The notes beneath the pieces are model-generated. The model was given only the letters and a program-made list of their open reading frames with translations, did not search any database and was not told where the DNA came from. A DNA stretch of 64,000 nucleotides from Gracilaria domingensis (Eukaryota; Rhodophyta; Florideophyceae; Gracilariales; Gracilariaceae), in the NCBI GenBank assembly GCA_022539475.1, contig VCMS01000098.1, positions 102,420 through 166,419 of the forward strand, read 5' to 3'. Of this stretch, positions 52,594 to 64,000 are shown one piece after another; position 1 is the stretch's first letter, and each line of letters opens with the position of its first letter. The translations under genes were made by a program, and so were the position numbers.

Positions 52594-52846
52594 GGGGGTG
52601 TTCTGCCGTCTCAGGGACACCCCCGAAGAATTTTTTTCTTGTATCTCCGCGGAGAGATAGGCGAAGTGCGGCGTGGAAGCTGCACTTCAAATCTCCCCCG
52701 CCCGCTGCGGCGCCAGCCGCAAGACAGGAGCAAGCTGCCCGTCGCGCCGCCGTGGCGCGACAGTGCACAGGAAAAGGCTTCCGCCAGTCGCGCCACCGTG
52801 GCGCGACTGCACAGGAGCGTGCCGCCTGTTGCGCCACCGTGGCGGG
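52594..52846. repeat. Cluster of palindromic hairpins at the element edge
   Basis: A GGGGGTGT/ACACCCCC inverted repeat (52,594-52,601 and 52,617-52,624) is followed by three spaced copies of a palindrome: TCGCGCCGCCGTGGCGCGA (52,742-52,760), TCGCGCCACCGTGGCGCGA (52,788-52,806) and a shorter GCGCCACCGTGGCG (52,831-52,844). Start-to-start spacing is about 43-46 bp. Copies 1 and 2 are each followed by a short CAGTGCACAGGA or CTGCACAGGA tail. The cluster sits just left of the first ACCRNNYGGT site. Confidence 0.8.
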
Positions 52847-52979
52847 TGGTATAACCGATCGGTGCGAGCTGCTAGTGGGGAGCCCCGCGTGGGCTCGACC
52901 CGGCGGAGGAGTGAAACGCGTGACACCTAATAGGTCGGCAGCACCCACCGTTGCCTATAGTGCACGGTGACCAAGTGGT

Positions 52980-54415
52980 AAATACGCCTGCACTGGTGTG
53001 CGGCAGGCACGTATAACCCTCGAGGTCAGCAAAACTATTAGAGGACTACTAGACTTATCAATTGTTGACTGTAGAACCGAACTGGTGTCAAATCAGCCTA
53101 GTTGGTGCTTGAATTTACCATTTGGTGTGGGAGGTTGGCGTCTCGGGGGTTTAGTACACCCGAGCGCCCCTCCGGCCCTCACGGGCCTAGTGCCACGTGG
53201 GCCACCGGGAGGTGCATTTGTGGTGCACCACCCCGGCCACATATCTACACTACCTAGTAATTATTAATTCTAAATTATCGAGAATAGACTAATTAGTCCT
53301 GTCCAAGCCTGCGCTTGCGCGTCCCACGTGGTACAGTAGACACACGTGCCCGGGAGCTCGTGACGTCACCACTTGGTCTTGTAGAGCCCCCGTTGATCTG
53401 GCCGAGCTATACTACAGACCCCCCTCCTACCGACAGGCACGCCCCGTGGCTGCGAAGGTCCCACGGCGTTTGCCGCCTTTTCACCAAACGGTCGTCGGCG
53501 CGCATCGCCTGGCGCACGGCGCGTCTCGCGATGACGCGAAGATGGCGCGGTGCACGGCGCGGTTCGCCACATGCACTGCAGCGCCATTACCCACGCCGCC
53601 GTACCCCCCTGTGGTAGGTGCGATCGTACCTTCCGTCCCTCGTGGTATTGGAACGCGAAACCGCGAACCGCGACCATTCAGGTTGATCTTGTCGCGCGCC
53701 TGGTACCACGTGGTTGTCTTCGCCTCTTTGGTCCCTCCCGAAGGAGTCCGTCACTTTATCTTCCCCTGTCCGTCCTCCCCCTGGGCGGGTTAGTCCCGGC
53801 TTACCAGTTGGTTTCGAGCCTCCCTTCGGTGGGGTTCGCAGTTGTCAACCGATCGGCACACCGCCCTCTCGTGGTGTCGCTCCTATTCTCTGTTGGCCAC
53901 TTGGTCTTGTGCCGTACTGAGGTGATACCTCGTTGGTTCCGACACGTACTGTCTCTCCGCTTGAGTGAGGGCGCCACTGGGGTGTCGTTGCATTGGGCGG
54001 CCGCGTCGAGGGTGAGGAGACTCCTGCCCGTGGCTCTTCAGACTTCGTGACCATACCGGTGCTGACGCCGCTTCTACCTAGTGGTCTGCCTCATCGGGGT
54101 GTTCAGGCTTGATTCAGGTCCAGCCGAGGGGTTTACCCGACTGCGTGGCGTTCAGCGCCCCTCCACCTGGTTCCTCGCGGTCTCCTTCCGTCCCTTAGGT
54201 TCCCTCTGGGGTGGTTGTACCCTCCCTGGTTCACGGAGCCCGTCCAGCCGGCGCACCACCCTGGTCATTTTCACGGTGTGTCAGCTCGCTCGAGCGGCGC
54301 GCCCGTTCTCTGTGACCCCTCAGGTTTCATCTAGTCATCCAATTGGTGGTGTTCCCCCTCTCGGTTGGTATCCTCCGTGGCACGCTCTCGCTCCAACTCG
54401 CGCCTTTTATACCTC
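52980..54415. other. Leader/promoter side of the antisense orphan gene
   Basis: This is 1.4 kb with no supported gene. Frames exist in all directions but end often. It carries at least eleven CCRNNYGG sites, so the motif does not depend on coding. CTTTTATA at about 54,404-54,411 lies just before the ATG at 54,416. Confidence 0.5.
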
Positions 54416-57142
54416 ATGGGTGATCAACCCGCTTCCCCAACGGGGTGGTCGATGACGTTCGAACGCCGTGAAGACGGTGCCGAGGAGGGCATCGCGCGCG
54501 CCCTTCCCGTTGTGGTGGACCCCGGGGGTGAGACGGCGCCGTTTCAATCGAATTACCACGTGGTTGACTCTTCGCAGCCCTGTCTGCCGTCCCAGACCGG
54601 TACACCTGTGTCCTTTCCATCGGGCGCCGAGGCTCCCGTGGAGGCCAACCACTTGGTATTGGAGGAGCCGCACTTCGACCCTATAAAGGGATATTCGGCT
54701 TCTGAAGTCTCCCCCTCGGCGGAGGTCAACCGTTCGGTTCGCGAAACTGTTGCCTCCCGGTCGAGGATGTCTGGCAAGACCCCTGGGGTAGCGCGCGGCC
54801 GCGGAGGTGGCATCTTCAAGCCTAACACGCGGTCGAGTACGCGTTCTCGTCAAGACCCTTACGGTCGCGGTGGGTATGATCCCTACGCAGCCGCCGCGGG
54901 CCCGAGCAACGTTAACCCTCTTGCGGTGGCCGGTACGGTGGAGGCTCAACAGCTGAATCCTCATGACCTTAATAGGACGCACGGGCAGCCGCATGCCCAC
55001 TATGGTGCACGCTTTGCCGATATCTCCGCCGAATTGGTCGCTCTGGGGAACTGGCCTTTCCACATCAGTTCCTCACTCTGTCCCTTGCGGTTCCGCCACA
55101 TGGGTCTCACGCAGTATACCGCAATTGCCCGTTGGGATTGTCGCCGGTTGGAGGCGGTGCCTATGGCACCTCCTCCACCACGCAAGGGCGAGAAGCAGAG
55201 CCGGTTCGGTCGACAACAGTGTTTTCATGCGCGGCAGCGACACACGAAGTTTCTATACTACATCCCCGTGGCCGTACCGTCGGATCTCCCCTTCATCCGC
55301 TGCGATGGGGAGGTCCACTACTTCCGCCGTTTGGTAGATATCCTTCACCGCTTGGACGAACCTGCTACGCACATCGAGGTCGATCTGGAGTACGTCGCGT
55401 TTGAGCGCCCTTTAGACACCAATTATTGGACTGACCGTGGGAGGTGGGCGACCGATGCGATGGCTGAGAGCCGTGTTCGTCACCGTAACAACCGTACGCG
55501 GACCATGTTCTTGTTCCACAACGTTGAGTATTGGTCGCAGAGCGACCACAACCGCCGGACATGGTATGTCAATCGACCCTCTTGGTGGGACCACTATGAA
55601 GTATGTCAGTGGCTGGAAGTGCCGACCCCGCCGGTCCTTGCGTACTTTGGTAGTAGCATCTCCCTCGAGAGGAACAACGCATATGCCGTTTGGTCGGTCG
55701 CGCGCAGCGAGTGGGCCGTCATGGTGGCTATCCTCGCCCTTCAGGCTTCCGTGGAAGGTGTGACTTGGGACACGCGCTGCCCTGACAAGTCTGTCGGGAT
55801 CAGCGGAACTCAACCAGTTGGTCGTATCTTCAATATTCCCAACGATGTGGTCGGCGACATTCGTGCCATGGGGCTCTCCAACATCGTGGAGGGCACCAAA
55901 TATACTGCGCAGCAGTTGGATGGCTACCTCACTGCGGTAATTAACCACAATTGGGGGCCTGAACAGGGTTGGGATGTCTACGACCCGGAGGTTCATAGCA
56001 TCGTGCCTCTCCAACAGCAGCACATGGCTGGCGAAGACCCATTTGGTAATGACGATACCGTGATGGTGGCTGCCGAGAACTATGAGTCCCCCGCATTGCC
56101 TCCGTCGGCACCTGTACAGGCTACTCCTCCGACCAGCGTGGCTGCGCCTGTTCCAAGTGGTCCGGCGAACCCTCAGGCGGTTGCTCACCCTCCCGGACGG
56201 GCTGCCCAGGGGCCTCTTCGGGTTGGTTTCCAGTCGCTTCCGGTGAATCCGGTGCCCCCTGGTGGTGATAGTGGCGCGATACGGAGCGCTCTGGCTCGTC
56301 TCAACCACGCCTCGATGGTGCACTTCAACCGTCCTGGTCTCAATGACATCCTCACCGCTGTGGATACTCTTACCAACTTGCTCCCCGTGGTTGCTCACCA
56401 CGAGCGGCGCACTTCTGAGCTGCGACAGTTCCGCGACTACTTCCAGCGCAATCTCTACCGTGAGGTGACAGCCTATGTTGGTCAGTTGAGCAACCTTGTG
56501 GAAGGCCACGCGCCGTTACATCGACCCCCTGTGGAAAGTTTCAACCCGTACGCTCCTGCGTCACAGCAACCTGCGACCCCAATGGTAGGCTTTGGTGGCC
56601 TTGGTACGTATCAACTCCCTGGTGGACCTCCTGGTGGTGATCCTGCGGCACCTTTCCATACTCCGCTTGGTCCTCACAACGTTCCTCTTCCTCCAGCAAG
56701 TACTGGGACAGGAGCACCAAGTGGTTTCTCAACTGGTTTCCGTTCGGCTCCGCTTCCGCCGACGTCCGGTGCTCCTAGGCCGCCTACTGGTCTGACCCCC
56801 GGTGCAGGGCCGTCTAGTGGTCTTGCTCCTCCGACCTCTGGTGGCATCCCTCCGTCTAGCTTACCGCCTTCCTTCCATCCACCCACTGGTCCTGCGAATA
56901 CCATGCCGGTAGTCAGCAGCGGTACCCCTGCGGGACCTGCTGGTACTTCTGCTCCCTTACCAAGTGGTGGTGCGCCACCGAGCGCGGCTAGCGGCGGGGG
57001 CGGAAGCTCCGCCGGACCTATGTCGGTGTCCTCTGGTCGTGGAGGTTCCGCTTCATCTCGCGGGACCTCCCGTGGACGTGGTCGCGGTCGTGGAACCAGT
57101 CGTGGACGCGGACGTGGCCGTGGGTCCTTCAAGGCCTCCTAA
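54416..57142 (+). CDS. Element-borne orphan protein, antisense to gag-pol
   Basis: The frame is intact, 908 residues, opposite in direction to gag-pol and located beyond the polypurine tract. After an acidic N-terminus comes an Arg/Gly patch (GKTPGVARGRGGGIFKPNTR, about residues 120-140). A globular-looking Trp/Tyr/Arg-rich core follows (about 190-560: RFADISAELVALGNWPF, RPSWWDHYEVCQWLEVPTPP, RSEWAVMVAILALQA), then a Pro/Gly/Ser-rich region and an RGRGRG tail. No RT, integrase, envelope helix or zinc knuckle is seen. RG repeats at both ends suggest nucleic-acid binding. A polyadenylation signal AATAAA follows at 57,181, so it seems to be an independent transcription unit. I do not recognise the family. 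Comparable antisense genes between pol and the 3' LTR are known in some plant Ty3/gypsy elements. Confidence 0.75.
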   Translation: MGDQPASPTGWSMTFERREDGAEEGIARALPVVVDPGGETAPFQSNYHVVDSSQPCLPSQTGTPVSFPSGAEAPVEANHLVLEEPHFDPIKGYSASEVSPSAEVNRSVRETVASRSRMSGKTPGVARGRGGGIFKPNTRSSTRSRQDPYGRGGYDPYAAAAGPSNVNPLAVAGTVEAQQLNPHDLNRTHGQPHAHYGARFADISAELVALGNWPFHISSSLCPLRFRHMGLTQYTAIARWDCRRLEAVPMAPPPPRKGEKQSRFGRQQCFHARQRHTKFLYYIPVAVPSDLPFIRCDGEVHYFRRLVDILHRLDEPATHIEVDLEYVAFERPLDTNYWTDRGRWATDAMAESRVRHRNNRTRTMFLFHNVEYWSQSDHNRRTWYVNRPSWWDHYEVCQWLEVPTPPVLAYFGSSISLERNNAYAVWSVARSEWAVMVAILALQASVEGVTWDTRCPDKSVGISGTQPVGRIFNIPNDVVGDIRAMGLSNIVEGTKYTAQQLDGYLTAVINHNWGPEQGWDVYDPEVHSIVPLQQQHMAGEDPFGNDDTVMVAAENYESPALPPSAPVQATPPTSVAAPVPSGPANPQAVAHPPGRAAQGPLRVGFQSLPVNPVPPGGDSGAIRSALARLNHASMVHFNRPGLNDILTAVDTLTNLLPVVAHHERRTSELRQFRDYFQRNLYREVTAYVGQLSNLVEGHAPLHRPPVESFNPYAPASQQPATPMVGFGGLGTYQLPGGPPGGDPAAPFHTPLGPHNVPLPPASTGTGAPSGFSTGFRSAPLPPTSGAPRPPTGLTPGAGPSSGLAPPTSGGIPPSSLPPSFHPPTGPANTMPVVSSGTPAGPAGTSAPLPSGGAPPSAASGGGGSSAGPMSVSSGRGGSASSRGTSRGRGRGRGTSRGRGRGRGSFKAS

Positions 57143-57180
57143 GTCACCTCGTGGTTCCCTCTCGTGGATTCTTCTCGACT

Positions 57181-57186
57181 AATAAA
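57181..57186 (+). terminator. Polyadenylation signal of the orphan gene
   Basis: AATAAA, 39 bp after the stop of the 908-residue frame, followed by a T-rich stretch (57,208-57,230), as expected downstream of a cleavage site. Confidence 0.6.
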
Positions 57187-57281
57187 GTGTCTTGCACTGT
57201 GTTCTCTGATCTTCTTTTGTTTTCCTGTTAGGTTAGTTAGTTAGCTTTTCGTGTAGCGTGGCGTTCAACGGCTTCGATAAA

Positions 57282-57298
57282 CCCCCCCCCCTTTCCTT
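57282..57298 (-). promoter_or_regulatory. 3' polypurine tract, overlapping the pol stop codon
   Basis: On the element sense (minus) strand this reads AAGGAAAGGGGGGGGGG. The pol stop TAA (57,299-57,297) runs into it. Polypurine tracts prime plus-strand DNA synthesis in LTR retroelements and normally adjoin the 3' LTR. Confidence 0.7.
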
Positions 57299-60200
57299 AG
57301 CGACGCGTACCACGCGAAGCAATACCAGTTGGTGGGGGCGTTCGCCCTTGTTTGCGCCAGTATCGGATGATGAAGTTGTTAGGGATATGACCAGGTGGTT
57401 CCATAGAGTCGTGCTCGGGCGACCATCCATACCATCTCACCCGGTAGCGCATACCCTTTGTGGTGTGTTCGTGACCTACAATGGTGTCAATAGCGCACTC
57501 CTGAGTGTCTACTTGAGGGTGTGACTCTTCCATTTGGTCATGGGGTGCGTGGCTCCCCGTGGGTGGTGTGACCCGTTGGTCTTGCCGAGGCTCGATCTCC
57601 TGTGCCGCTTGGGTCGTGGGGTCAGCCGTTACGGCTCTGGTGGAAGGTTGACCGCTCGGCTGACTCATCATAGGAGGGGGTATGGGAGACGTTTGCTCCC
57701 TCTCCGCTTCCTGCTGCGTTGGCTCACATATTGGTTGTGCATTCGCTGTCGTCGGTTGTGCGGCCTTGACAATCCTGTCGATGGAGACCGTGTTCTCCAA
57801 ACCTTCCATTATGACCGTAGCGGTATGCTCGTCGGAGCGAATCACCTTGTATGGTCCCGTGGACTTGGGTAGTAGTTTAGAATTGATATCCTCCTCAAGG
57901 CGGATGTCCTCTTCCATCTCCGCTGGGGTTGGTCGCTTACCTTTTGGTGGCACGTCAAGGAAGACCATGTCTCCTGCTACCACTTTGGTCACTTTGCTCA
58001 CCGTTCGGTCATAGTCCGCTTTATACCGTTCTTGGGCTGCTGTCATCTTAACTTTGGCAGCAGCCAAAGCGGCGCGTAACTTCTGGAGTATGTCTCTCTT
58101 GACCTTCGCCGGTGTGAGTGTCCCGGCCGCTTCCGAGCGGTCAGGTCCGGGCTGGACGATAATACCATGTGGTGTTCGCGAAAGTACCAGGTCGAATGGG
58201 GTTGTTTGAGTGACCCTGTGGACCTGGAGGTTGTACGCATATGTCAATGGTTGGACATACTCCGACCATGTGGTTTGGTGCTCTTCGACATAGTGCCGTA
58301 GGCGTGCCACTAGGGTCTTATTGAAGCGTTCCACTTGGCCGTTTGTTTGAGGATGATAGGCCGTGGTAAAGTAGTGCTTGACCCCTAGCATTGTACAAAC
58401 CGCCTCGAAGAACTTAGAAGCTAGGTTCGAACCGTTATCGGTCAGTAGGTACATGGGAGCACCGTACGGGTAGACCCAATTCTCCAGGAAGGCTGTCGCT
58501 AGTGTCGTTGCCGTTTGGTTCTTCAGAGGTATGGCTCTGGTGAGCTTTGTGAACCTGTCGGTTATGACTACTACAAAGCGATAACCCTCTGAGGTCTTGG
58601 GCAGGGGCCCCAGTATGTCGATTGCTACGAATTCCAGGGGCCCCGCCGCCGGGAATAGCTTTAGGTACTTCCTGTGCTTCGCCACACCACCTCGGGTCTT
58701 AATGCACGAATTGCATTGCGCCACATAGGTATATACATCGTTAGCCATATGCGGCCAGTAGAATTGCCTCCGAAGGGTATAGTACAACCGCGTGGCTCCA
58801 GGGTGCCCCGAAAGCCGTGGATTGTGTGACAGATATAACACCCTTTGTCTTAATGACTCAGGTACGACCTTCTGGAGAGCTCCGTCTAAAGGTGAGCGTC
58901 TGATGAGGTACCCATTGTGGTCGACGTCGAAATGAGAATCCTTCCTTCCAAGTACGTCAGCGAGCGTTTTGCACAACCTATCGGTCGATTGTTCGCGTAA
59001 GAATTCCTCACGGGTGATTGGAGCGTGTTCCCCTTCCTCCACAGGAAGGAGGGTCTCCACTACCACTTGGTACGTACTGTCATCATGCCAGTATCCCTTC
59101 AGAACTTCATTGACCTCGTGGTTAGCTGGTTCTATAGTAAAGCATGGGATGTCGTCGTCCACTGGGTCAGTGTCCAATCCTTCGGTATTCAACCGGGACA
59201 ATGCATCCGCCACTCGGTGCTTGACCCCGGGGCGGTACTGCACATCGTACTCAAACTCCGAGAGTCTCAGACGCCATCGGGCCAAGCGACCCGATGCGTC
59301 CGCCAAGCCTAATATCCACCTCGAGGAGTCGTGATCCGTTCGGAGCGTGAAGCGCACACCATATAGGTAAGGACGTAGCATGAGCATACTCCAAACAACC
59401 GCTAGGCATTCCTTCTCCGTTACGGTGTAGTTCTGCTCCGCTTGGTTAAGAGCTCTACTCCAATACCCAATTGGTGCGAGCTTGCCGTCCTCCTGTTCCT
59501 GCATTAGGCAGCAACCTATTTGGGCGTCCGACGCATCTGTGTCCAGTGTATACGGGAGTCCCGTTTTGGGCAATGCCAGTACCGGTGGGGAGAGAAGCGC
59601 TGCTTTCAATGTATAGAACGCCTCCACCTCGTCCTCTTCCAGGTGGTCAAAGTGTGTGGGCTGCCCCTTTTGCAACCTCCGGTTCAGGGGTGCGGCTATC
59701 TTTGCAAAACCCTTGATGAACCGCCGGTAGACGTTGCATAGACCTATAAAGGATCGTATGTCCGTCTGCGACGCAGGGAGCTTCGCTTCCTGTACCGCTC
59801 GGATATTCCGTTTGGTCACTTCGAGTTTCCCGGGGCTTATTGTATGCCCTAGGTACTCTACCTCTTGGTTGAAGAACATACACTTTCGTAGTTTGAGGGT
59901 CACGCCTGCCTCTTGTAGCAACTGCAGTACCACTTGGACGTGCGAGAAGTGCTCCTCTATGGACCTCGAGTACATGACTACGTCATCTATGTATACCAAT
60001 GCGGTTGTCCACTTCACTTTAGACAGTATGATGTCTAACGCCCTTTGGAAGGTAGCGGGGGCGTTTCTTAAACCAAACGGCATGCGTAAGAAGCGATACA
60101 GGCCTGCGTGGCATGTAAACGCAGTCTTATCACGGTCACCCTCTGGTATTTCGATCTGCCAATACCCGCAGTTGGCGTCCAGTGTGGTAAAGATGTTCGC

Positions 60201-61847
60201 ATCTCCTAGGGAGTGGATGCATTCATCCATCCTCGGGATGGGGTACGAGTCCCTTACCGTTACGGCATTAAGTTTTCTGTAGTCAATACAGAACCTCATA
60301 CGGGTCTCTCCTCGTTTTTGGACTAGCACTACAGGGCTAGCCCATTCCGAGTTTGCCGGTTCTATAACCCCCTCGCGGAGCATCCGCTCTACCTCCTCCA
60401 GCTCTACCTCACGGGCCTTATGTCCCGCGCGGTATGGCTGTTGGTGGATGGGACGGGAGTCCGGTTTGAGGTCAATCCTGTGCTGGGTGGCCTTAATGGC
60501 TCCCAGCTTACCCGACCACATGGTACTGAATGGCTCCAGGAGTCCAAGGATCCGAGCTCTGAGCTCTTCCCCTTCAAGTCCTATATTCACCTCCGTCTTC
60601 CAATTGGTCACTGGGTCGAGCTCCAGTTTCTGGTCTTCTCGCTCAGCTAGTCGCTGCACCATATGGTCTGTTCGCGACGAATTCAACGAATTGACACTGC
60701 CCCCCCCTTCCTTAGCATCCACGACCTCGTGGGACCATTGTGGTATAATTGTAAAGATCGTACGGGGAGCCGGTAAGGCAAGACCAATTACGGTGTGTTT
60801 TGGCAACTTGACCGGGCGGTTGCTGAAGTTACTCAGGTAGACCTGAAACGGTTTTGTCGGTATGTTGTCGACTATACCATTTGCCATTAAGGTCATGTGT
60901 CGTTCGGCCAACCGTGAATGGTTCTGAATGGATAACAGGCCAGGTTGTTGGCATGTGACCTTCACTACCAAGTGGTTCATAGGCGGTATTGTTACCGCCT
61001 TTGCCAATCGCACCTTGTTGGAGAGTGTGTTTTCCGGGACCGGTTGGTGTTGAGTGCGGTTCTCTTTCGTAGAGGCACCCTTGTGGTTACCAATAATGGC
61101 GATCCGGGGGCCATTATGGAACAGAACTGTCTTAGAACGTGGAAAAATTGCCCTGACATGCTGGTCTATAAAAGTTGTTCCAAGGATACAGTCTGTTGCC
61201 AGTTGGTTAACGACTATGAAGCGAACTCGGACCCTCATGGTGTCAATCAATACCATTATGGTAAGCGCTCCCATGACGGTTAGTGGTCTGTTGTTTGCGT
61301 CAACCAGTGGGTTAGTTAATGTACATGGCTGAAGCTTATTAAGTTGTCTGTTAGTTAATAGTTTGGCATTCACCAGATTAGGTCCTGCCCCGGTGTCCAG
61401 GACAGTGACGCATGGTACCAAGTGGTTAGAAGTAAACCCGAGGGTGACGTTTACCTTATAGTTACTATGCTTGAGAAAGCATATCGGTTCGGTGCCGTCC
61501 ATGAGGCTCTCCTCCCCTGTAACCAATGGGTAATTGTCCATACTTGCACCACTTGGTTCTGGAAGGCCTTCCGTCTTCGGACAGTTGGGGAAGGCCTCTA
61601 TCCCAACTGTTCGGCGTTTTCCGCCTGCGGGGCGGGATTCGTTTGGTCCTGCTCCGTGACGAGGTGTACCTGATGAGGTGTGGCTGCATTGGGTCGCGCA
61701 TTTGCGTGTCCCGTGCCTGCGCTCCGTGCCGGGGGCCCAAATATATCCTGGTGGTTCTGCTGGCGAGCAGTCAGGAGAGCGTTCCTGTTCTGCGGAGCCA
61801 CACTTGGGCACGCTGTTGCCAAGTGGTGAGGCGACAAACAGAACCAA
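57297..61847 (-). CDS. pol: Ty3/gypsy chromovirus pol polyprotein
   Basis: An uninterrupted frame of 1,516 codons. In order (residue numbers counted from 61,847): aspartic protease with DTGAGPNLV at 151; reverse transcriptase about 455-700 with FCIDYRKLNAVT and the YIDD catalytic motif at 619-622; RNase H from about 765 (TLDTDASDAQIG, DALSRLN near 881); integrase with an HHCC finger (His1008, His1015, Cys1045, Cys1048) and catalytic D1076, D1137 and E1173 (TDNGSN, HPQTNGQVERFNK); and a C-terminal chromodomain (about 1447-1500: IDTIVGHE, YRVRWYGWSPEHDSMEP). The frame begins with TTG at 61,847 and overlaps gag by 250 bp in another frame, so pol is probably made by ribosomal frameshift. All catalytic residues are present, so the copy may be young. 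Confidence 0.95.
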   Translation of the reverse strand: MVLFVASPLGNSVPKCGSAEQERSPDCSPAEPPGYIWAPGTERRHGTRKCATQCSHTSSGTPRHGAGPNESRPAGGKRRTVGIEAFPNCPKTEGLPEPSGASMDNYPLVTGEESLMDGTEPICFLKHSNYKVNVTLGFTSNHLVPCVTVLDTGAGPNLVNAKLLTNRQLNKLQPCTLTNPLVDANNRPLTVMGALTIMVLIDTMRVRVRFIVVNQLATDCILGTTFIDQHVRAIFPRSKTVLFHNGPRIAIIGNHKGASTKENRTQHQPVPENTLSNKVRLAKAVTIPPMNHLVVKVTCQQPGLLSIQNHSRLAERHMTLMANGIVDNIPTKPFQVYLSNFSNRPVKLPKHTVIGLALPAPRTIFTIIPQWSHEVVDAKEGGGSVNSLNSSRTDHMVQRLAEREDQKLELDPVTNWKTEVNIGLEGEELRARILGLLEPFSTMWSGKLGAIKATQHRIDLKPDSRPIHQQPYRAGHKAREVELEEVERMLREGVIEPANSEWASPVVLVQKRGETRMRFCIDYRKLNAVTVRDSYPIPRMDECIHSLGDANIFTTLDANCGYWQIEIPEGDRDKTAFTCHAGLYRFLRMPFGLRNAPATFQRALDIILSKVKWTTALVYIDDVVMYSRSIEEHFSHVQVVLQLLQEAGVTLKLRKCMFFNQEVEYLGHTISPGKLEVTKRNIRAVQEAKLPASQTDIRSFIGLCNVYRRFIKGFAKIAAPLNRRLQKGQPTHFDHLEEDEVEAFYTLKAALLSPPVLALPKTGLPYTLDTDASDAQIGCCLMQEQEDGKLAPIGYWSRALNQAEQNYTVTEKECLAVVWSMLMLRPYLYGVRFTLRTDHDSSRWILGLADASGRLARWRLRLSEFEYDVQYRPGVKHRVADALSRLNTEGLDTDPVDDDIPCFTIEPANHEVNEVLKGYWHDDSTYQVVVETLLPVEEGEHAPITREEFLREQSTDRLCKTLADVLGRKDSHFDVDHNGYLIRRSPLDGALQKVVPESLRQRVLYLSHNPRLSGHPGATRLYYTLRRQFYWPHMANDVYTYVAQCNSCIKTRGGVAKHRKYLKLFPAAGPLEFVAIDILGPLPKTSEGYRFVVVITDRFTKLTRAIPLKNQTATTLATAFLENWVYPYGAPMYLLTDNGSNLASKFFEAVCTMLGVKHYFTTAYHPQTNGQVERFNKTLVARLRHYVEEHQTTWSEYVQPLTYAYNLQVHRVTQTTPFDLVLSRTPHGIIVQPGPDRSEAAGTLTPAKVKRDILQKLRAALAAAKVKMTAAQERYKADYDRTVSKVTKVVAGDMVFLDVPPKGKRPTPAEMEEDIRLEEDINSKLLPKSTGPYKVIRSDEHTATVIMEGLENTVSIDRIVKAAQPTTANAQPICEPTQQEAEREQTSPIPPPMMSQPSGQPSTRAVTADPTTQAAQEIEPRQDQRVTPPTGSHAPHDQMEESHPQVDTQECAIDTIVGHEHTTKGMRYRVRWYGWSPEHDSMEPPGHIPNNFIIRYWRKQGRTPPPTGIASRGTRR
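60700..60713 (-). promoter_or_regulatory. Central polypurine tract-like sequence inside pol
   Basis: The sense strand reads GCTAAGGAAGGGGGGGGC, almost the same as the 3' tract (CGCTAAGGAAAGGGGG). It encodes Ala-Lys-Glu-Gly-Gly-Gly between protease and RT. Central polypurine tracts serve as a second plus-strand primer in lentiviruses and in yeast Ty1. Confidence 0.5.
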
Positions 61848-63349
61848 CAGAGGAGATTGCCGGTTGTGGGGTCCTTCATCGCGAGCGACGACGCGCGCGA
61901 TGGAGGACGGCCTCCAGTAGGTACTGCACTCCGTTGCTGCGGGTATGGTCCTTGTTCACCATATTGCTTGAATGGTACCGCTAGGACCGGGCTGACCGGT
62001 ACGGATACCTGTGATGGTGGAGCTGAGGTTTGTCTCGAGGGTGGCTCGCTGGATAGCGAGCTGGACCAAGAGGTATTACCGTGCGATCGAGTTGTCGGTT
62101 GTGCATGCACCAAGTGGACTGGGTGACCCTGGGAGGCGTATTGTGTGGACGCCTCCCCCGTAGTGGTCTCCTCTTCCTCTACGTCAAACACTGACCGCCT
62201 GGTCTTTCCTTTCTCCTTCGATGGTTTGCCGAGTGGTGCGGAGTCTTTCCTGGCCCCTGACCGAACGGTGTCGCCTAGTCCCTGTGCATGGCGGGCTAGT
62301 GCGTTGTAGTCGACCGTGCGGTTGGTAGCTAGGTAGTTACGAACCTGTGATCGGATAGACTTCGCCACGTTGTCGGCGTACATCGATTTCAACCTTTTGG
62401 TAGTAAAGACGCTTCCACAGCGGGAGGCTAATGCCCATAAGGAGCGAGCGAATTCCAATTCGGTTTGTCCCGCGCGCTGGCGGTACGCAAGCACCTCTGC
62501 GTACGCCTCCTGGATTACCTCATCGGTCGCGTAGGTTTCCAGTAGGAAGTTAACCACCTGTGGGTATGTTGTCAACATTTCCGTTTGGTCTTCGTCCACC
62601 GCCATGGTGTTTCCTTGGAGGCGGCTGTGGAGCAACGCTCCAGCCTGACCAGTTAGGTAGAATTGAAACAGCCACATGGCTGCTGCCTCTGAAAACCCAT
62701 TCTGATCACAAGCGATCTTGAACCTTTGAAGGAAATCAATGATCGCAATAGGGTCATCCTCGCTAAAGCGAGTTTCACCCAGTTGGAAACGAAGCTTCCT
62801 ATGATGCTTCGTTATCTTCTGAGCTACCTCTTTGGTATACTCAGCCTGTCTGTTCTCTAACCTATAGGTACGATAGTCAACCGCTTTGGTGAATAAATCA
62901 TTGAGCGGCGTAAGCACCTCTAGGTCAGTCTCCTCGTCGGAAGTTGAGTCCGAATCGTTATACCTTTTGGTCTTACCCTTGCGGGGATTCTTTCCTTTCT
63001 TCTTGCGAGAGTCCTTCCTCTTGCGTCGTGAACCTGTACGGTCGTCGTCTCCTGACGAATCCGAATCGGTGTCTGAGGACGAAGAGTCCGAGTCCGACCG
63101 GCGACTCTTTCTCTTTCCCCTTTTGGTTTTCTTCTTCTTACCATTTGGTTTACGTCGACGCTCGTCTCCTGAGCTCGACGAATCTCCATCAGGGTCTCCA
63201 CCATTGGTCCTGACGGAGCTACACCAGTAGGTTGGGGAGGTAAACGTACCTCGGGCCCTCCATCCCTGGAGGCTCTGCCCCTTTCCCCATACGGTCGATA
63301 AATCCTTCACCAGTCGGTTGTGTAGGAAGGTTAGGGTGGAGAATACCAA
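61598..63349 (-). CDS. gag: Retroelement gag, capsid and nucleocapsid part
   Basis: The frame has about 583 codons. A very basic and Ser/Asp-rich segment (about residues 50-145: GKKKKTKRGKRKSRRSDSD and long SSSDTDSDSSGDD runs) precedes a helical capsid-like domain (about 165-380) with FSEDDPIAIIDFLQRFKIAC, AAAMWLFQFYLTGQAGALLH, VVNFLLETYATDE and QTELEFARSLWALASRCGS, the pattern of Retrotrans_gag proteins. Near residue 505 is one zinc knuckle, CWFCLSPHHLATAC (CX2CX4HX4C). The stop at 61,598 lies inside the start of the pol frame. The true N-terminus is in another frame further right (63,219-63,862), so this frame alone has no proper start. Confidence 0.88.
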   Translation of the reverse strand: MVFSTLTFLHNRLVKDLSTVWGKGQSLQGWRARGTFTSPTYWCSSVRTNGGDPDGDSSSSGDERRRKPNGKKKKTKRGKRKSRRSDSDSSSSDTDSDSSGDDDRTGSRRKRKDSRKKKGKNPRKGKTKRYNDSDSTSDEETDLEVLTPLNDLFTKAVDYRTYRLENRQAEYTKEVAQKITKHHRKLRFQLGETRFSEDDPIAIIDFLQRFKIACDQNGFSEAAAMWLFQFYLTGQAGALLHSRLQGNTMAVDEDQTEMLTTYPQVVNFLLETYATDEVIQEAYAEVLAYRQRAGQTELEFARSLWALASRCGSVFTTKRLKSMYADNVAKSIRSQVRNYLATNRTVDYNALARHAQGLGDTVRSGARKDSAPLGKPSKEKGKTRRSVFDVEEEETTTGEASTQYASQGHPVHLVHAQPTTRSHGNTSWSSSLSSEPPSRQTSAPPSQVSVPVSPVLAVPFKQYGEQGPYPQQRSAVPTGGRPPSRASSLAMKDPTTGNLLCWFCLSPHHLATACPSVAPQNRNALLTARQQNHQDIFGPPARSAGTGHANARPNAATPHQVHLVTEQDQTNPAPQAENAEQLG

Positions 63350-63862
63350 GTGGTTTGGTGGCGTCTACTGCAGGCGGGGGAGCTTGCTTCATGAGCGCGG
63401 CCTGGGCCACCATCTCAGGTTGAAGCTTAGCCCCCTGCTGCTGCAGAGCCAGCATAACCAATCGGTCGATGTGTCCTCGCACCTCGTTTTCGAGGTACTG
63501 TAACACCACCACAGGTACCTTGTCGAGGACCTCCTGGAGGCTCGATCAACTACCACTCGGGTGACCTCGTCCAAGTCCAGTCGCGGTCCGACTGGCACCT
63601 CCATTTGGTCTACCACTGGGGTTGTTACAGGAGCGGGCTCCGCCCTTGCGGAGCCTGCTCCTCCGTCCACTTGGTCAGCCCGGGGAAGGGTCGAGGGGCC
63701 CCCAGCCTCTCGGTCTACCTTCTTCCCCCTCGGTGGGCGTTCCTTCCGAATCAGGTCCTCCGGGTTATCCAACACCGGATAGGACACTGAACCCCGTATG
63801 GGGTGACCACTTGGTGGAGCGCTCGGCGCCCTATTTGGGTAGCGCGCGCCCCGTTTCTCCAT
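63219..63862 (-). pseudogene. gag: 5' part of gag, split over two frames
   Basis: The ATG at 63,860-63,862 opens a frame (MEKRGARYPNRAPSAP...) that reads protein-like to about 63,545. A second frame then continues with EVLDKVPVVVLQYLENEVRG and ALQQQGAKLQPEMVAQAALM to a stop at 63,219. The main gag frame takes over at about 63,230-63,250. Two shifts of one base would be needed to read gag through. They may be real damage in this copy, sequencing errors, or programmed frameshifts. Codon use and motif content do not change at the breaks. Confidence 0.6.
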
Positions 63863-64000
63863 TTAGGTAACTGGCGTCGGAGCCAATTGCTTCGGCAACG
63901 GGAACCAAACCACTCGGGTATCTCGTGACTTCCAAATCCTCCCTTCCCAAAACCACTTGGTAATCACAGATTTCTAGTCGGGCAGACCAAAATATTGTGG
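63863..64000 (-). other. Leader of the retroelement, primer site not located
   Basis: This is 138 bp upstream of the gag ATG, running off the window. It includes two more ACCRNNYGGT-type sites (63,910 and 63,953). On the sense strand two TGG-starting segments (around 63,974-63,989 and 63,866-63,885) could be a primer-binding site, but I cannot match either to a tRNA with confidence. No LTR is seen yet. Confidence 0.4.

Follow-up and report, generated by a model that had tools for sequence, protein, structure and literature searches.

Results

A chromodomain Gypsy element at the contig end

The stretch of DNA analysed here, which we refer to as the window, comprises the 64,000 nucleotides at the end of contig C98 of Gracilaria domingensis, and our genome-wide counts cover 77.9 Mb in 680 contigs. 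The host side of the window includes a Mg-chelatase H gene whose closest named matches come from Agarophyton chilense (82%) and Gracilariopsis chorda (73%); the top match, a transcriptome protein, also stands at 82%. From 52,846 to 64,000, on the minus strand, comparison with other copies and Pfam searches delimit an LTR retroelement, which we call family A, seen from its 3′ LTR to the far end of its internal region. Its pol frame (57,297–61,847, minus strand) encodes a reverse transcriptase (RT), RNase H, integrase and C-terminal chromodomain in that order (PF00078, PF17917/PF17919, PF17921, PF00665 and PF00385), the chromodomain scoring 25.6 bits against a cut-off of 25.1. The 3′ LTR measures 571 bp (52,846–53,416, minus strand) and is the only LTR in view, as the 5′ LTR of this copy lies beyond the contig end; the same 571-bp repeat is present again at the far end of two other copies, C459 and C213, in which the second LTR starts directly after the base corresponding to 64,000. 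With this domain order and paired LTRs, the element is a chromodomain Gypsy (chromovirus-type) LTR retrotransposon. The first-pass annotation had recognised a retroelement at 52,971–63,961; the element in fact begins at 52,846 and reaches 64,000. Its LTR-side 2 kb has at least 41 matches in the genome at 96–100% identity, a figure that includes the window's own match, C269 in two pieces and two others that are partial.

Between the LTR and the first large gene lies a stretch (53,417–54,394) with eight CCRNNYGG words and a plus-strand open reading frame (ORF) of 166 aa (53,550–54,050) without a Pfam match. The gene that follows (54,395–57,142, plus strand), read as 915 aa from 54,395, runs antisense to gag and pol and ends in an RG-rich C-terminal tail; we refer to it as the orphan gene. 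Upstream of pol in the direction of the element, and overlapping the upstream part of the pol ORF, a 583-aa ORF (61,598–63,349, minus strand) matches no gag family and is labelled gag from its position, and a further ORF of 157 aa (63,389–63,862, minus strand) likewise matches no family.

Some features of the surroundings deserve mention. The contig stops (64,000, or C98:166419) where the internal region meets the 5′ LTR, a repeat at which the assembly seems to have been interrupted. Just outside the other LTR edge, a GC-rich 25-bp unit that contains a palindrome is directly repeated in three imperfect copies (52,737–52,848) at spacings of 46 and 41, the last overlapping the LTR by three bases. 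Elsewhere in the genome, RNase H matches of another Gypsy family recur on contig C94 (3381, 11506 and 19631) at 8,125-base steps, which suggests a tandem array of elements. A search of viral_contigs and genome_contigs for relatives of the RT piece confirmed none.

An inverted bipartite motif fills the element

It had been claimed that the palindromic word CCRNNYGG, usually extended to ACCRNNYGGT, occurs about 72 times (about 6.5 per kb) in the element. The excess is real and larger than that: between 52,971 and 63,961 we counted 85 CCRNNYGG (7.7 per kb, against 1.0 in the rest of the window) and 33 ACCRNNYGGT (3.0 per kb, against 0.09), and the 52,970 bases to the left of this interval hold 53 and 5, respectively. 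For the full element part of the window (52,846–64,000) the counts are 87 CCRNNYGG against a dinucleotide-shuffle mean of 18.4 (maximum 30 in 200 shuffles) and 35 ACCRNNYGGT against a mean of 1.1 (maximum 5 in 200 shuffles), whereas the rest of the window has 51 CCRNNYGG against 72.7 in shuffles and 4 ACCRNNYGGT against 2.6. A recount of the ChlH gene stretch, previously said to hold two CCRNNYGG, gave seven, and no decamers. Across the 77.9 Mb of the genome we counted 8,783 decamers (backward control, 5,764), or 0.11 per kb, which makes the word about 27 times rarer than in the element; the corresponding figures for ACCN5GGT, 22,778 against 21,629, are too unspecific to help. The 35 decamers, given by the position of their first C, lie at 52855, 52971, 53118, 53369, 53484, 53706, 53804, 54556, 54649, 54730, 55814, 56717, 56960, 57325, 57391, 58001, 58165, 58266, 59063, 60516, 60659, 60812, 60968, 61040, 61418, 61549, 62195, 62261, 62314, 63141, 63310, 63346, 63458, 63807 and 63953. 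When all gapped 3+3 and 4+4 words with gaps of 0–8 were scanned, ACCA-NN-TGGT ranked first, with 24 occurrences against 0.15 expected from base composition.

The decamer and its CCRNNYGG core are the form in which a broader signal, ACC-N4/5/6-GGT, most often appears. Dispersed over 52,846–64,000, inverted ACC and GGT half-sites occur 61 times with a spacer of 4, 38 times with 5 and 19 times with 6, where 8.2 are expected; a spacer of 7 gives 10, and the highest count among the remaining spacers from 0 to 25 is 13, at 25. No comparable enrichment was found in the element for GGT-n-ACC, ACC-n-ACC or GGT-n-GGT, and in the rest of the window the ACC-n-GGT profile is flat (maximum 15, at spacer 3, against 8.0 expected). 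At spacing 4 the inner pair is palindromic, A..T or G..C; spacing-5 sites of this copy are without an inner R..Y preference.

As the earlier annotation held, the sites run through gag, pol, the orphan gene and non-coding DNA, and they extend into the LTR as well, which holds five ACC-N4-GGT and three ACC-N5-GGT sites. ACC-N4-GGT amounts to 4.0 per kb in the orphan gene, 5.6 in pol, 8.7 in gag and 8.8 in the LTR. The sites do not stand at regular intervals, such as one to a nucleosome (coefficient of variation of the spacing 0.88, against 0.87 for random placement), nor is there an array of sites among the listed repeats of the window.

Protein coding does not account for the sites

Sites of the orphan gene had been reported in more than one codon phase; with the three spacings pooled, all three phases are used there (5/11/8), as they are in pol (17/18/12) and gag (11/6/3). 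We made 1,000 synonymous-codon shuffles per gene, and the observed number of ACC-N4-GGT lay above every shuffle in the orphan gene (11 against a mean of 2.4), pol (24 against 6.1) and gag (12 against 2.8), which bears out the claim that protein coding is not the cause. Weaker results were obtained for CCRNNYGG in the orphan gene (16 against 9.1, reached in a fraction of 0.009 of shuffles) and for the 157-aa ORF (2 against 0.33, fraction 0.035), and spacer 6 in family A exceeds synonymous-shuffle chance in pol only.

Half-sites are conserved in diverged relatives and decay in young copies

Seven diverged relatives (L027–L033), with 81–92% DNA identity in the part that aligns, were compared with the window copy; the expectation for a half-site base was taken from other bases that shared its trinucleotide context and codon position in the relative concerned. 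Site positions are conserved between these copies, in agreement with a check that the annotation had proposed: half-sites show 186 changes where 361 are expected (z −11.6, which overstates the certainty because the relatives share ancestry). The depletion is found at codon position 3 (67 against 186), at positions 1–2 (95 against 128) and in non-coding DNA (24 against 47). In a second estimate the ratio for silent half-site changes is 0.31 (67 against 217.9; site bootstrap 0.18–0.47, the safer figure given the shared ancestry), it is below 1 in all seven relatives (0.22–0.51), and the non-coding ratio is 0.45 (site bootstrap 0.17–0.89). Spacers are less constrained (277 changes against 341 expected). 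The idea that the half-sites are kept while the centre varies is thus upheld for the half-sites and has to be softened for the centre, where positions 1–2 (103 against 100.5) contrast with position 3 (130 against 187); non-coding spacer bases changed 44 times against 54 expected.

Young copies behave differently. Across 13 loci, some of them overlapping, half-site changes are not depleted (81 against 74.6 expected), and in nine distinct young copies 63 of 4,083 half-site bases had changed, compared with 922 of 67,077 bases overall. Since half-sites change at the normal rate in young copies, new insertions appear to decay freely, with the sites kept in the lineages that go on transposing, and a lower mutation rate is an improbable cause. 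The pattern of substitution indicates that the sites are kept by selection, in coding and non-coding DNA alike. That base composition, codon usage or mutation bias could yield the pattern has, in our estimation, virtually no chance of being right: codon use does raise the counts somewhat, the shuffled means being above the density of the rest of the window, but the dinucleotide and synonymous shuffles, the flat spacing profile outside the element and the conservation of silent and non-coding sites, which is absent from young copies, all speak against it. We reject these causes on the shuffles and on the contrast between old and young copies.

In the element and nine copies, CpG transitions are no more frequent than transitions at other C (0.0058 against 0.0073) and the CpG observed/expected ratio is 0.92, so that these copies carry no mutational sign of CpG methylation; CpG decay showed no trend with distance from the sites.

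The sites resemble those of a dimeric DNA-binding protein

The arrangement consists of inverted half-sites with rotational symmetry around a freer centre, whose spacer is partly constrained at silent positions. Bases adjoining the half-sites are complementary in just 7 of 61 sites at N4, 6 of 38 at N5 and 1 of 19 at N6, and about as often as by chance further out. A dimer bound to double-stranded DNA is suggested by the symmetry of the half-sites together with the palindromic pair inside them at spacing 4, by the relative freedom of the centre and by flanks that do not pair. The first reading of the locus had likened the two half-sites to those of a dimeric DNA-binding protein, and this likeness gains from the coding-independent signal and the silent half-site constraint; it is extended here by the range of spacings, 4 to 6, and by words specific to element families.

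RNA packaging had also been put forward; in that case short ACC-loop-GGU hairpins would be bound by Gag. Spacings of 4–6 resemble hairpin loops, and shorter spacings are not enriched. Against hairpins stand the flanks, which do not pair, and the palindromic inner pair, which would leave a two-base loop at spacing 4 if it paired and suggests instead a dyad on double-stranded DNA. Moreover, the palindromic triplet pairs among the top 12 words of the window element, ACC/GGT and CCA/TGG, are both parts of one site rather than complementary triplets at large. We consider packaging hairpins very unlikely.

Related families share the motif and a distant family has another

A sister family, B, shares the motif. 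Its copy C38, with an RT at 79% identity and 405 bp of the LTR repeat in view at 97.8%, is as dense in sites, with 48 at N4 and 62 at N5 against 8.1 expected; they reach the 500-base bin containing the LTR edge (about 193,322), beyond which a single site occurs in 4 kb (193,500–197,499). An alignment of A with B covers 3.9 kb at 67% DNA identity, and in it 17 of 35 site words have been retained at the matching position, compared with about 9–11% of control words. By tblastn the orphan gene was not found in C38, where matches amounted to fragments of 10–17 aa with E values of 3 or worse; the frames of this copy are broken by stops, and a copy-specific loss is possible. A second family B copy, C399 (RT 76%), likewise has the A-type motif, and tblastn found no orphan gene in the 5 kb of it that were read, 174 of these bases being masked. 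The motif in two copies of family B that lack the orphan gene means that this gene is not needed in cis.

In a more distant family, represented by C508 (RT 65% identical), the same antisense place is taken by an orphan homologue with 31% identity across 297 alignment columns. Here CC-N4/5/6-GG occurs 106, 125 and 85 times against 44 expected, with an inner G..C; CCGNNCGG (CCG-NN-CGG) is found 41 times against 9.0, whereas CCANNTGG is found just 4 times in 10 kb. CCGNNCGG exceeds synonymous shuffles in the pol piece (13 against 2.3) and not significantly in the orphan gene of this family (4 against 2.2). When 12 site words from the window copy were compared with C508, 2 were kept in register (2/5, 0/4 and 0/3), close to controls, as a differing motif would lead one to expect. 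C26, from a further orphan subfamily, has CCGNNCGG as its top word over the 3 kb read (9 against 0.6). An unrelated Gypsy element, C192, contained within 5 kb no ACC-N4/5-GGT, no CCGNNCGG and a single ACC-N6-GGT. Judged by their enriched words, motif specificity shifts between families, from the A/B type to CCG-NN-CGG.

Two observations concern the orphan genes themselves. L035:483-2852 represents another orphan-gene family, far diverged at 31% identity, that also has an RG-rich tail, and further subfamilies at 43–60% identity to this gene occur among the genome matches listed.

Discussion

Who reads the sites

The sites could be read by a host DNA-binding protein, such as an activator, insulator, replication or segregation factor, evolution having led the element lineage to be coated by it. 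The two family B copies that retain the motif in the absence of the orphan gene agree with this, as does the sharing of one motif by A and B within one host, and because CCANNTGG, as we take it, includes an E-box (CANNTG), a bHLH factor would be one option. However, the C508 family lives in the same host and uses CCGNNCGG, with next to no CCANNTGG, the sites lie all over the coding DNA rather than mainly in the LTR, and an E-box cannot account for spacings 5 and 6. Furthermore, the genome-wide decamer excess over the control equals about 86 element copies with 35 sites each, so that no large set of host sites is evident. A host reader seems unlikely to us.

Alternatively, Gag or Pol, through its integrase or chromodomain, might bind sites in the cDNA and so compact it, bring it into the nucleus, protect it or help it to avoid self-integration. 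The distribution of the genes would allow it, with gag-position and pol ORFs in A and B and pol in C508. Distance in pol tracks the type of motif, common to A and B at 76–79% RT identity and different in C508 at 65%, and coverage of the whole cDNA fits as well. No sequence-specific domain was recognised in these proteins apart from the integrase and chromodomain, and we regard this binder as unlikely.

The orphan protein is the first candidate: in the searches made it is restricted to the lineage, it has a separate gene of its own on the antisense strand, it bears an RG-rich tail, and its divergence is accompanied by a different motif. Among the genome matches listed for the gene, 40 of 54, several of them partial, have no stop within the matched stretch. 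A search of 5.8 billion proteins gave no homologue at E 0.001 among 7,994 scored, and in Pfam the window protein had no match and no recognisable DNA-binding domain. An alignment of its relatives produced weak matches only (best E 0.033, in one of ten members; PDB, E 0.65), and a single-sequence fold of 301 residues, at pLDDT 31.7, was useless. The main result against the orphan protein as the binder is the family B copies that lack the gene, unless B uses the A protein in trans; family B argues for action in trans or for another binder.

A model of the site array

We propose that the element is an array of sites for a dimeric DNA-binding protein, most likely one of the element lineage, that sets its DNA apart from that of the host, and we give this proposal an even chance. 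First, the whole element would present about 120 recognition sites, built from ACC half-sites (ACCR where they stand closest) that are separated by a variable 4–6 bp. These would be read by a sequence-specific, probably dimeric protein on double-stranded DNA. Selection on transposing lineages would maintain the array, so that binding could take place from one end of the element to the other, as provirus and/or cDNA; the presence of sites in LTR, genes and gaps alike suggests that it is the whole molecule, in either form, that must be bound. The binder would most likely be one of the lineage's own proteins, the antisense orphan protein being the first to consider and serving the orphan-less sister elements in trans. 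Finally, its job would be to distinguish element DNA from host DNA, either for the opening of element chromatin, in the manner of VANC anti-silencing, or for the handling of cDNA. A VANC-like removal of DNA methylation finds no support in the mutation spectrum; chromatin may be opened by other means. A more specific form of the proposal, tentative and to our minds possible rather than probable, is that the roughly 120 bipartite sites make up a code of self-identity read by the element's own antisense-encoded protein, that daughter lineages switch words (ACCA..TGGT or CCG..CGG) together with the reader, and that relatives without the orphan gene parasitise an existing reader.

Relation to known systems

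The DNA uptake sequences of bacteria (Neisseria DUS, Haemophilus USS) are asymmetric words in the bacterial genome that are read by the uptake machinery. Like them, the motif is a short word, here putatively of self-recognition, spread across coding and non-coding DNA and apparently kept by selection; unlike them, it is bipartite and inverted and belongs to one mobile element. The Su(Hw) insulator sites of Drosophila gypsy, about a dozen in one non-coding cluster, are bound by a host zinc-finger protein. Here too a Gypsy element carries many sites for a protein, in our case a putative one, but they are spread over coding and non-coding DNA and do not form one cluster.

Arabidopsis VANDALs are DNA transposons of the Mutator-like type. 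Two reports describe how their VANC proteins target their own kind specifically through a short motif that is repeated within one transposon lineage and differs between related families, the YAGTATTAY motifs lying mainly in non-coding regions and often in tandem repeats (PMC5735166; PMC10398659). The red algal elements are similar in that a motif is enriched in the element and differs between related families (A, B, C508 and, over 3 kb, C26). They differ in having a Gypsy pol and LTRs in place of a Mutator-like backbone, and a bipartite inverted motif of flexible spacing whose sites stand singly through coding DNA, with no tandem array; an element-encoded reader is hypothetical here, and the element copies show no sign of CpG methylation decay. 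A structural likeness is found in plants, where Retand, Grande and RIRE2 Gypsy elements have antisense ORFs between pol and the 3′ LTR, one product of which, TRP28, is predicted to bind DNA (PMC11963269). The antisense accessory gene of the window element lies in the same place, yet it matches neither TRP28 (PF04195) nor any other Pfam family. In the sections of that report cited here, Retand is described as a non-chromovirus lineage and a dispersed motif is not mentioned for these elements (PMC11963269). By analogy, VANC/VANDAL would be the nearest functional parallel and the Retand antisense ORFs the nearest structural one. Among the titles and abstract openings that our searches of an open-licence library brought up, none described a dispersed motif in an LTR element, or this kind of element in red algae.

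A DNA signal covers the whole of this LTR retroelement and overrides the synonymous freedom of its genes, and it does so with controls for composition and coding in place. How a retroelement tells its own DNA from that of its host thereby becomes testable in a red alga, and the different code words of related families would offer a natural experiment on the co-evolution of protein and DNA outside the VANDAL transposons.
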